Part shown: piece by piece, positions 19,410 through 23,545 of the stretch | Layout of the letters: every line of letters begins with the position of its first letter | Position numbering within the stretch: the stretch's first letter is position 1 | Assembly (NCBI GenBank): GCA_903847315.1 | Contig: CAINDG010000008.1 | Location: 1-64,000, forward strand | DNA: 64,000 bases | Direction of reading: 5' to 3' | DNA from: an uncultured Planctomycetota bacterium | GTDB taxonomy: Bacteria > Planctomycetota > Phycisphaerae > Sedimentisphaerales > UBA12454 | The notes under the pieces: generated by a model | What the model saw: only the letters and a program-made list of their open reading frames with translations | What the model was told of the DNA's origin: nothing | The model's database searches: none | Made by a program: the position numbers and the translations under genes

Positions 19410-21329
19410 ATGGTGAAAGTAACGCTGCCTGATGGCAAAGTATTGGAAGTTCAAAACGGCCTGACGATAGGTCAGGTAGCAGAAAAGATAGGGGCAAGAC
19501 TCGCTCGTGACGCGGTTGCGGGCAAAATTAACGGCCAAACGGTCGATTTAAACACACCAATCAAAGAAAATGTATCCCTTTCAATCATAACAGCTAACAA
19601 ACCTGATGGTCTGGAGATAATACGGCATAGCTGCGCTCACGTTATGGCTGAGGCGATTTGCAGTATCTGGCCGAAGGCACAATTGGTTTACGGGCCGACG
19701 GTCGAAGACGGGTTCTATTACGATATCGACCTTGACGAGCCGATAAGGCCTGAAGATTTTGAAAAAATCGAAAAGAAAATGGCTGAAATCGCCGAGAAGA
19801 AACTGCCTTTCGTCAGGAAAGAATTGGGCAGGGAGCAGGCGATAAAGCACGTTGCCGGCAATAAGTATAAAATCGACAATATCGGCAGGGCGCAGGGCGA
19901 TACGATAAGTTTCTATTCGCACGGCGGCGGGTTCGAGGATTTGTGCAGGGGGCCTCACGTGCCGAGCACCGACAGGATAGGCAGTTTTAAAGTTATGTCG
20001 GTGTCGGGTGCTTACTTCCACGGCGACCAGGCTCAGAAAATGCTTCAGAGGATTTACGGCACGGCGTGGGCGACAAAAAAGGAACTTGACGAATATCTGC
20101 ACAGGCTCGAAGAGGCGAAGAAACGCGACCACAGATTTTTGGGCAAGCAGCTCGATTTGTTCGGCATTTACGACGATATCGGGCCGGGGTTGGTACTTTG
20201 GCATCAGAAGGGGTCGTTAATCAGGCATATAATCGAAGCGTTCTGGAAAGAAGAACATCTTAAACGCGGATACGATCTTATTTATACGCCTCATATCGCT
20301 ATGGAGAAGATTTATCAGCGAAGCGGACATCTGGAAAAATACGCGGATATGATGTATTCGCCGATGGATATTGACGGGCAGAATTATTATCTCAAGCCGA
20401 TGAACTGTCCGGGACATTATATGATTTATAATTCTACTCCGCGGAGCTACCGCGATTTACCGATGCGGTTCTGCGAATTGGGAATGGTTTACCGGTACGA
20501 GCCGAGCGGCACGCTGCACGGGATGCTGCGGGTACGCGGGTTTACACAGGACGATGCACATACGTTCTGTACGCCGGAGCAATTGGGGCAGGAGCTTGAT
20601 TTGATTCTCGAATTGATGCACTTTATGATGACGACCTTCGGATATACGTACAAGGCGTATTTGGCGACCCGGCCGGCGAAATTCCTGGGAACTGAAGAGG
20701 AATGGGAGCGGGCGACAAGAGAATTGCGGCTTGCGCTGGAACGGCGGGGACTGGCTTATGAGGTCGATGAGGGCGGCGGCGTGTTTTACGCGCCGAAGAT
20801 AGATATTAAGCTGATAGATTCGCTTGGACGCGAATGGCAGGGACCGACGCATCAGGTTGACCTGCAGGCGGCTAAGCGATTCGGCATTCATTATGTCGGA
20901 GCCGATAATGCGCTGCACGAACCGGTGATTATTCATCGGACTGTGCTGGGCAGTATGGAACGGTTCATCGGCGGGCTGATTGAGCATTACGGCGGCGATT
21001 TTCCACTGTGGCTTTCGCCTGAGCAGATGAGGGTGCTGACTATCAGCGAAAAGACAAATGATTACGCACAAAAGCTGCATCAGAGATTGAAGGCGGATGG
21101 TTTGAGGTGCGGGATCGATACTTCGAATGAAAAAGTCGGCGCGAAAATTATCCGGGCACATAGCGATAAAATACCTTATATGCTCGTTGTTGGGCCTAAA
21201 GAGGTGGAAACTGAAAGCGTAAATGTCAGAATTCGCGGGACTAACGAGAGTAAAAGCGTCGGAGTCGAGCAATTCATTGCCGCAACGAAAGAGAAAATTA
21301 AAACTAAAACACAGGATATAAATTTATAA
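19410..21329 (+). CDS. thrS: Threonyl-tRNA synthetase
   Basis: The 639-residue enzyme charges tRNA-Thr. Its domains are in the usual order: TGS (~1-61, start MVKVTLPDGK), the editing domain with HSCAHVMAEA near residue 73 (HxxxH), the class II catalytic core (~245-535; motif 2 around MVYRYEPSGTLHGM) with zinc ligands in MNCPGH, DDAHTFC and GPTHQVDL, and the anticodon-binding domain at the end. The length is standard. It opens an operon with infC, rpmI, rplT and pheS, an order well known in bacteria. I am confident of the assignment. Confidence 0.97.
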   Translation: MVKVTLPDGKVLEVQNGLTIGQVAEKIGARLARDAVAGKINGQTVDLNTPIKENVSLSIITANKPDGLEIIRHSCAHVMAEAICSIWPKAQLVYGPTVEDGFYYDIDLDEPIRPEDFEKIEKKMAEIAEKKLPFVRKELGREQAIKHVAGNKYKIDNIGRAQGDTISFYSHGGGFEDLCRGPHVPSTDRIGSFKVMSVSGAYFHGDQAQKMLQRIYGTAWATKKELDEYLHRLEEAKKRDHRFLGKQLDLFGIYDDIGPGLVLWHQKGSLIRHIIEAFWKEEHLKRGYDLIYTPHIAMEKIYQRSGHLEKYADMMYSPMDIDGQNYYLKPMNCPGHYMIYNSTPRSYRDLPMRFCELGMVYRYEPSGTLHGMLRVRGFTQDDAHTFCTPEQLGQELDLILELMHFMMTTFGYTYKAYLATRPAKFLGTEEEWERATRELRLALERRGLAYEVDEGGGVFYAPKIDIKLIDSLGREWQGPTHQVDLQAAKRFGIHYVGADNALHEPVIIHRTVLGSMERFIGGLIEHYGGDFPLWLSPEQMRVLTISEKTNDYAQKLHQRLKADGLRCGIDTSNEKVGAKIIRAHSDKIPYMLVVGPKEVETESVNVRIRGTNESKSVGVEQFIAATKEKIKTKTQDINL

Positions 21330-21370
21330 CAGGATGTTTATAAAATTATTGAGATTGAAAGGAAAATAAT

Positions 21371-21880
21371 ATCAGTAAGATAAAACTCAGAATCAACGAG
21401 CAAATCCGTACAAGTCCGGTTCGTCTTATAGGTGCCGACAACAGTCAGATAGGAATTGTGAGTATCGAACAGGCGATTGCGCACGCTGTAGAGGCGGAGT
21501 TGGATTTGGTAGAGATTGCTCCGGAAGGCAGCCCGCCGGTTTGCCGGATAATGGATTTCGGCAAATATCTGTATGAGCTGAAAAGGAAAGAAAAACAAAA
21601 CCTGAAAAAACAGCATACGATTACCCTGAAAGAAATTCGGCTGCGTCCAAAGACAGACCCGCACGATTGCGAAACAAAAGTGAATCATGCCCGCGAATTT
21701 TTCAAGAAGGGCCATCATGTTCAGTTTACTATGATGTTCAAAGGTCGCGAAATGATGCATTTGGATCTGGGACAGGCGATGATGAACAAGATAGTCGAGC
21801 AGCTCGAAGATGTCGCTAAAGTCGACCGTCCGCCAGTCGTAATGGGCAAAAGAATGACAGTGCTGATGTTACCGAAATAG
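21371..21880 (+). CDS. infC: Translation initiation factor IF-3, apparent AUC start
   Basis: The 169-residue factor binds the 30S subunit and checks start codons. From the ATC at 21371 the frame reads ISKIKLRINEQIRTSPVRLI, which is the conserved IF-3 N-terminus, then IAPEGSPPVCRIMDFGKYLY, the linker and the C-terminal domain. No ATG, GTG or TTG lies between the upstream in-frame boundary and the conserved N-terminus; the first GTG (21458) would remove it. AAAGGA lies 7 nt before the ATC. In E. coli, infC starts at AUU and IF-3 represses its own translation through this rare start. An AUC here would fit the same logic. The start remains inferred. Confidence 0.9.
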   Translation: MSKIKLRINEQIRTSPVRLIGADNSQIGIVSIEQAIAHAVEAELDLVEIAPEGSPPVCRIMDFGKYLYELKRKEKQNLKKQHTITLKEIRLRPKTDPHDCETKVNHAREFFKKGHHVQFTMMFKGREMMHLDLGQAMMNKIVEQLEDVAKVDRPPVVMGKRMTVLMLPK

Positions 21881-21919
21881 GCGGCAGCAGAACAAGGCGA
21901 AGAAAACGAAAGTAAATTG

Positions 21920-21948
21920 TTGACCTTGAGGCGAAAGGTTGCTAATAT
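21920..21948 (+). promoter_or_regulatory. Possible internal promoter before rpmI
   Basis: TTGACC (21920-21925) and TAATAT (21943-21948) are 17 nt apart, 45 nt before rpmI. The spacer contains an ACCTT...AAGGT hairpin (21923-21939), so a regulatory hairpin is an alternative reading. Confidence 0.35.
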
Positions 21949-21993
21949 ACCAATCTTTATTTTTTATAAACAAGAGTTATGAGGTTCTGAAAT

Positions 21994-22191
21994 ATGCCCA
22001 AGAAAAAGACACATAAGGGATTAAAGAAACGCGTAAAGGTAACTGCAAACGGCAAAGTTAAAGCTCATAAGAGCTTTAAGGGGCATTTGATGAGCGGAAA
22101 ATCGTCAAAGAGACGCCGCCGATTAGGCAGACCAATTATCATTTCTGAAATATATGCCAAATATATGAGAGAAATGCTTAACAAAGATTAA
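21994..22191 (+). CDS. rpmI: 50S ribosomal protein L35
   Basis: The 65-residue basic protein begins MPKKKTHKGLKKRVKVTANG and has the conserved HKSFKGHLMSGKSSKRRRRL stretch of bacterial L35. It is a component of the large ribosomal subunit. It lies 113 bp after infC and 15 bp before rplT, in the standard infC-rpmI-rplT order. The length is typical. Confidence 0.96.
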   Translation: MPKKKTHKGLKKRVKVTANGKVKAHKSFKGHLMSGKSSKRRRRLGRPIIISEIYAKYMREMLNKD

Positions 22192-22206
22192 TAAAGGAAG
22201 GCTGAC

Positions 22207-22563
22207 ATGCCACATGTAAGAAAGGGTTCAGCAACCCGTAAAGCAAGAAAAAGAGTCCTTAAAAGCGTTAGGGGACACCGAGGCCTCGCAGGCAGGGCTT
22301 ACCGGATGGCCAAGGAACAGATAGTACGGTCTGGGGTCTTCGCGAGAATCGGACGCAAGCAGAAGAAAAGACAGTTCAGAAGACTGTGGATTACACGATT
22401 AAACGCGGCATGCAAAATGCGAAAGATTAGCTACAGCCTGTTTGTCAACGGCTGCAAGAAAGCATCCATCGGCCTTAACAGAAAAATGCTAAGTGAAATT
22501 GCCATTCATGACCCGGCCGCATTCGATGCCATAGTTGAAAAGGCACGAACCGCTTGTGCTTAA
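22207..22563 (+). CDS. rplT: 50S ribosomal protein L20
   Basis: The 118-residue basic protein shows the L20 signature (GSATRKARKRVLKSVRGHRG, then RIGRKQKKRQFRRLWITRLN and the NRKMLSEIA region near the end). It binds 23S rRNA early in 50S assembly. In several bacteria L20 represses its own operon through a structure near rpmI. No clear such structure can be proven here. The stop overlaps the likely pheS start by 8 bp. AAGGAAGG precedes the ATG. Confidence 0.97.
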   Translation: MPHVRKGSATRKARKRVLKSVRGHRGLAGRAYRMAKEQIVRSGVFARIGRKQKKRQFRRLWITRLNAACKMRKISYSLFVNGCKKASIGLNRKMLSEIAIHDPAAFDAIVEKARTACA

Positions 22564-23545
22564 ACAATTCGAACAAATCGGTAAGGACGCTTTAGAATCG
22601 CTCAGAAAGGTAAGCAATTCTGCGCAACTCGAGGAATTTCGCGTCCATTTCCTGGCGAGAAAAGGGATTGTTACTGATATGCTGAGCAAAATCGGCGCCT
22701 TTCCGGCAGAGCAGAGGAAAGATGCCGGCGCTCTTGCCAATAAAATCAAACAGGAAGTAACCGCGGCGTTCGAACATCTTAAATCATCTCTACAGGGCAC
22801 GACTGTACAAAAAGGACCAATCGTCGATGTAACTTTGCCTGGGGTTGAATTCGAAAAAGGCAAGGCTCATATAATAACGCAAACCATAAACGAACTGCTC
22901 GAGATATTTGGCAGGATGGGATTTTCCATCGCGTACGGGCCTGAGGTGGAAGACGAGTGGCATAATTTTGTCGCGTTAAATATCCCGGAAGGACATCCGG
23001 CAAGAGACCCATCGGATAATTTCTGCATAGATAATAATAAACTGCTGAGAAGCCAGACATCGACAATTCAAATCCGCACGATGGAAAAGCAAAAGCCGCC
23101 GATAAGGGTGGTTGCGCCGGGCAGAGTTTACAGGCCTGATACGGTCGATGCGACGCATATGTTTATGTTTCATCAGCTCGAGGCGCTGGTGGTCGATGAA
23201 GGCGTCTCAATGGTCGATATGAAAAGCACTATAGCGCAGTTTATAGCCGTCTTTTTCGGCAAGGACGTAAAATGGCGGTTGCGGCCGAGCTTTTTCCCGT
23301 TTACAGAACCGAGCGCGGAAGTGGATTTGCTGTTTGTCGCCAGCGACGGGACGGAAAAATGGATTGAAGTCGGCGGCTGCGGAATGGTTGACCCAAATGT
23401 TCTTAACGCAGTCAATATAGACAGCGAAAAATACACAGGCTGGGCGTTCGGGTTCGGAATTGAACGGCTGGCGATGCGAAAATACGGAATAACCGATATC
23501 AGACTGTTTACAGAAAACGATATCCGCTTCCTTAAACAGTTTTAG
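22556..23545 (+). CDS. pheS: Phenylalanyl-tRNA synthetase alpha subunit
   Basis: The 329-residue catalytic subunit shows the class II motifs: GFSIAYGPEVEDEWHNFVAL (motif 1 region), the HQLEALVVDEG segment, and motif 3 GWAFGFGIERLAMRKYGI. I prefer the GTG at 22556, because the protein then starts VLKQFEQIGKDALESL like other PheS proteins. An in-frame TTG at 22535 adds 7 residues. Unlike the common pheST pair, no pheT follows: the next gene is convergent and overlaps by 4 bp. The beta subunit must be elsewhere in the genome. Confidence 0.95.
   Translation: MLKQFEQIGKDALESLRKVSNSAQLEEFRVHFLARKGIVTDMLSKIGAFPAEQRKDAGALANKIKQEVTAAFEHLKSSLQGTTVQKGPIVDVTLPGVEFEKGKAHIITQTINELLEIFGRMGFSIAYGPEVEDEWHNFVALNIPEGHPARDPSDNFCIDNNKLLRSQTSTIQIRTMEKQKPPIRVVAPGRVYRPDTVDATHMFMFHQLEALVVDEGVSMVDMKSTIAQFIAVFFGKDVKWRLRPSFFPFTEPSAEVDLLFVASDGTEKWIEVGGCGMVDPNVLNAVNIDSEKYTGWAFGFGIERLAMRKYGITDIRLFTENDIRFLKQF

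Follow-up and report, generated by a model that had tools for sequence, protein, structure and literature searches.

In Escherichia coli, the gene for translation initiation factor IF-3, infC, reportedly starts at AUU and is controlled by IF3 itself. This is said to be the work of Butler et al. in 1986 and 1987 and of Sacerdot et al. in 1996. The IF3 gene of Myxococcus xanthus, dsg, is said to start at AUC, a result attributed to Cheng et al. in 1994; if so, it would resemble the gene described here as another IF3 gene with an AUC start. Gvozdjak and Samanta reportedly described in 2020 bacterial genes that prefer non-AUG starts, and their work may already contain part of the survey given below. 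On the infC starts of planctomycetes, no publication was found in an open-access library. Further cases are described in two articles. In the first, infC starts at ATT in E. coli and at ATC in Streptomyces, IF3 is thereby autoregulating, and the infC starts of most Streptomyces are misannotated (PMC5472188). In the second, ribosome density is reported at the AUA start of infC in Staphylococcus aureus by Ribo-Ret (PMC13009471).

We analyzed a stretch of 64,000 nucleotides (the window) from an uncultured Planctomycetota bacterium. The analysis suggests, with a probability of about 0.82, that infC in the window starts at AUC and limits its own translation through a start disfavored by IF3. The relevant features are as follows.

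19410 to 21329, + strand: thrS, the gene 5' of infC (TIGR00418, 675.8 bits)
21356 to 21358, + strand: in-frame TGA, the nearest in-frame stop 5' of the ATC
21357 to 21363, + strand: Shine-Dalgarno sequence (SD) GAAAGGA, 7 nt 5' of the ATC, its AAAGGA part at 21358-21363
21371 to 21373, + strand: proposed AUC start of infC, the ATC column in relatives
21371 to 21880, + strand: infC, translation initiation factor IF-3, 169 codons from the ATC and then a TAG stop (21878-21880)
21458 to 21460, + strand: GTG, the first table-11 start of the infC frame, 29 codons 3' of the ATC, probably not the true start
21994 to 22191, + strand: rpmI (L35; TIGR00001), ATG start, control gene
22207 to 22563, + strand: rplT (L20; TIGR01032), ATG start, control gene

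Judged by gene order alone, infC belongs to the thrS-infC-rpmI-rplT cluster. Order and orientation agree, and these genes and pheS all lie on the + strand at 19410-23545. The E. coli order is thrS-infC-rpmI-rplT-(pheM)-pheS, and the window has a similar thrS-infC-rpmI-rplT-pheS. The list of open reading frames gives a TTG at 22535 for the pheS frame; a GTG at 22556, which overlaps the stop of rplT, seems the more probable start (22535-22558). The infC start of E. coli and the one proposed for the window are both mismatched at the third base and follow an SD. The codon is AUU there and AUC here, and the feedback has been tested in E. coli, whereas we infer it here. Streptomyces infC is the same gene with the same ATC codon (PMC5472188), in a distant phylum; the window codon rests on comparison. 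S. aureus infC shares the gene and the AUU/AUC/AUA class. It has AUA with ribosome evidence (PMC13009471), whereas the AUC in the window is proposed from aligned genomes.

The frame of infC is open from the AAG at 21359 to the stop at 21878-21880. Its product read from 21371 is IF-3, matching TIGR00168 with 201 bits (cut-off 60) over residues 5-169. The Pfam IF3_N model matches with 101.7 bits (cut-off 26.9), and its position 1 falls at 21392; this is the sole IF3_N match in the genome. The codons after the TGA are AAG GAA AAT AAT ATC AGT AAG ATA AAA CTC, followed by AGA ATC AAC (R-I-N, 21389). We searched the infC frame between the TGA and the R-I-N for ATG, GTG or TTG and found none, so the gene encodes IF3 with no AUG, GUG or UUG available before the conserved N-terminus. 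An earlier note on this DNA, made from the letters, had claimed just this absence, and the codons confirm it. It had also placed AAAGGA 7 nt upstream of the ATC, and its coordinates are correct. A standard in-frame start farther upstream, which the note had named as evidence against its reading, is excluded by the TGA, which closes the frame.

The GTG at 21458 is the first table-11 start of the frame. Starting there would give a shorter IF3 and leave the upstream stretch untranslated. We regard it as a very unlikely start, because the preceding sequence encodes the conserved IF3 N-terminus. The GTG would remove 22 of the 70 IF3_N model positions, and the protein of the stretch 5' of it is largely kept in relatives although the codons change. 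A gene finder restricted to ATG, GTG and TTG would choose this GTG and cut IF3 short. The same complaint is made for Streptomyces in PMC5472188.

Initiation at the AUC would be guided by GAAAGGA. This SD is without a GGAGG core, which counts against the preferred reading of an IF3-disfavored AUC start. No 16S match was found in the assembly of the genome itself, and 16S of relatives was used instead. It was searched for in 12 relatives, matched in 8 and read at its 3' region in 7; all 7 have GGATCACCTCCTTTCT. GAAAGGA is complementary to this region if the mature 16S end reaches that far. The RNA fold predicted for 21300-21420 does not surpass those of shuffled sequences (z 0.47), and we therefore claim no leader structure. 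Rfam at gathering scores found three tRNAs only in the whole window.

Comparison with close relatives points to the ATC as the start. The genus and family supplied eleven genomes, including the window's own (L002-L012), that align without gaps over the 169 codons. At column 1, the window's own genome and its nine closest relatives carry ATC, and the eleventh genome carries ATT; the earlier note had proposed this comparison as a check. Among the ten closest genomes, the third base differs in 49% of same-residue codons on average, and only 10 of the 169 columns are codon-invariant. Four of these are ATG, and column 1 is the sole isoleucine column among them: the 13 others of the 14 isoleucine columns never keep one codon across the ten. 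Ten of the gaplessly aligned genomes have sequence at the column of the TGA, five codons before the start, and 8 of them keep it. In the remaining one, L011, the contig starts 2 nt ahead of the ATC; its SD is therefore out of view and its upstream columns are meaningless. A twelfth family member (L013) has an ATT preceded by AAAGG. At the true place, 10 of 12 family loci have an ATH codon and an SD but lack a standard codon; none of the 12 does so when the anchor is moved by 40, 60, 80 or 100 codons. A short stretch lacking a standard start is not unusual in itself, occurring in 33, 0, 55 and 70 of the 95 order loci with the anchor moved into the gene. What stands out in these alignments is the fixed ATC, rather than the missing standard start. 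Together with the codons of the open frame, the start column strongly supports initiation of infC at AUC 21371, as the earlier note had proposed from the window. With a draft genome of 54 contigs, a sequencing or assembly error might have deleted a normal start. This explanation is scarcely credible and is already contradicted by the nine other genomes that carry the identical ATC.

The leader contains another possible route into infC. An out-of-frame ATG at 21334 opens a frame of 11 codons that ends with TAA 21367-21369, 1 nt before the ATC, and is also present in L005. Ribosomes starting there might enter infC by a +1 frameshift, or translation might be coupled to the AUC by reinitiation. 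L009 has a different out-of-frame ATG 16 nt before its ATC by our reading. We consider this route highly improbable. By reading, the frame from ATG 21334 occurs in L002 and L005 only, whereas all ten closest genomes have the ATC. Any ATG within 45 nt before column 1 is found in just 4 of the 11 family loci with leader sequence, where the 45 nt of L013 are partly coding owing to an insertion. The frameshift from ATG 21334 was rejected, since the small frame is confined to the window and L005.

Two side observations concern this leader. The small frame at 21334-21369 spans the SD in the window and in L005, and coupling by reinitiation is possible. The 60 nt before the ATC (21311-21370) are identical at 59 of 60 positions between the window and L005. 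Within infC itself the two share 17-28 of 30 positions per block, and the leaders of L003, L004 and L008 have 10-23 of 30 identical per block. The near-identical leader may reflect a constrained leader in two species, or a recent exchange.

We extended the comparison to a survey of 261 non-duplicate loci: 12 from the family, 95 from the order, 47 from the class, 52 from the phylum and 55 named loci, mostly from other phyla by title. It originally held 270 loci, and 9 duplicates (L001, L032-L039) were dropped before counting. Matches were found in 55 of 59 genomes of relatives, 108 of 118 of the order, 58 of 61 of the class and 58 of 59 of the phylum; these draws overlap. Fragment-only matches were left out of the counts (G111; G142, G152, G156; G173, G190). 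The start caller is crude: among the start-like codons in frame, it picks the one whose SD is best. Its SD reference is TAAGGAGGTGA, whereas the complement of the relatives' 16S is AGAAAGGAGGTGATCC. The anchor position is doubtful for some distant loci, such as L062, L065, L067, L070, L073, L074 and L076. The counts include loci L173-L191, of which those called standard or unclear were read individually. The survey loci are related by descent, so that the figures are counts and not independent trials.

The caller gave AUC, AUU or AUA for 11 of 12 loci of the family, 74 of 95 of the order, 39 of 47 of the class, 33 of 52 of the phylum and 35 of the 55 named loci. A standard codon was called in 0, 15, 6, 9 and 6 loci of these groups, respectively, and the caller was unclear in 1, 6, 2, 10 and 14. 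AUG was called in none of the 154 loci of family, order and class, in 4 of 52 of the phylum and in 3 of 55 named loci. By these calls, most sampled order members keep the AUC/AUU/AUA class, which is also frequent in the sampled loci of other phyla. Reading of individual loci refined the picture. GTG replaces ATC, ATT or ATA in nine order loci (L165, L176, L179, L183, L190, L197, L204, L205, L207). Two others have a TTG-like start (L174, L215), and six are ambiguous (L031, L173, L180, L193, L203, L219). An ATC- or ATT-like start was read in L014, L025, L095 and L101; the caller gives TTG for L014, L095 and L101, where the ATC at the usual column looks better. Several loci of the phylum draw have an ATG, GTG or TTG start. 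One phylum locus (L258) has an apparent infC start at CTG after GGAGGTGA, and the open stretch before its conserved motif has no ATG, GTG, TTG or ATH codon.

Moving the anchor by 40, 60, 80 or 100 codons provided a background for these calls. At the true place, an ATH codon and an SD occur, with the examined stretch free of standard codons, in 10 of 12 loci of the family, 57 of 95 of the order, 15 of 47 of the class, 19 of 52 of the phylum and 27 of the 55 named loci. With the anchor moved, the order gives 2, 0, 0 and 5 of 95. When standard codons are disregarded, the order has 80 of 95 at the true place vs 13, 10, 2 and 5 moved, the class 41 of 47 vs 8, 1, 3 and 18, and the phylum 33 of 52 vs 14, 3, 5 and 11. 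The background of the caller outside the family is not negligible. Against it, the evidence is strong in the family and order and weaker per locus beyond. In 179 Planctomycetota loci, ATH codons at SD distance (an SD of 5 or more, aligned spacing 3-8) number 77 in frame vs 7 and 3 in the other frames; 102 of the 179 have no ATH codon in the tested spacing. ACH codons, often the codon just before the start, come next in this test with 33 in frame.

Control genes gave a different start. Of the 107 family and order loci, 30 allowed rpmI and rplT to be located, and both genes begin with ATG in every one of the 30. One rpmI among the 30 has S, not P, as its second residue. More distant groups were left unused, as the alignment at residue 1 is often shifted there. 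The E. coli infC, used as a sequence control, has its ATT start after GGAGG.

The following mechanism would account for the start. The ordinary initiator tRNA would start infC at AUC 21371, guided by the GAAAGGA SD. Because the third base of AUC would be unpaired with the CAU anticodon, IF3 would destabilize the initiation complex. Plentiful free IF3 would keep infC translation low, and scarce IF3 would let it rise. The weak start would thus act as a negative feedback that matches IF3 to the ribosome supply, like E. coli infC with AUU. For the window, the start-codon class and the gene order make such autocontrol plausible.

An AUC start may instead be merely weak and keep IF3 low, with no meaningful IF3 feedback in the clade. 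GTG or TTG is seemingly used by several order members, which loosely acting selection for a low rate would tolerate. However, a merely weak start could also be obtained via GTG, TTG or a weak SD, and the caller finds AUC, AUU or AUA in 124 of the 154 family, order and class loci, AUG in none. We consider this explanation improbable and prefer feedback through an IF3-disfavored AUC. Strict feedback would not be kept everywhere, as suggested by the order loci with GTG or TTG, codons better tolerated by IF3, and in some genera the start has apparently relaxed to GUG. A broader reading, which we offer tentatively and with some doubt, is that, throughout the Planctomycetota class of this genome, infC is held off AUG and drifts among AUC, AUU and AUA, locally GUG or UUG, under standing selection for an IF3-sensed start. 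If this is true, the genera with GUG would be natural material for testing what disappears along with the feedback.

An AUC start of infC has already been published for Streptomyces and an AUA start for S. aureus, and the window case is not new in kind. The AUC start is sound but not novel, because it fits the long-known self-limitation of IF3. What is new here is that the AUC/AUU/AUA class of infC starts appears to be frequent throughout one planctomycete order and turns up again in other phyla. A weak, IF3-sensitive infC start that is this widespread would mean that IF3 self-limitation of the E. coli type is probably ancient or has often re-evolved.
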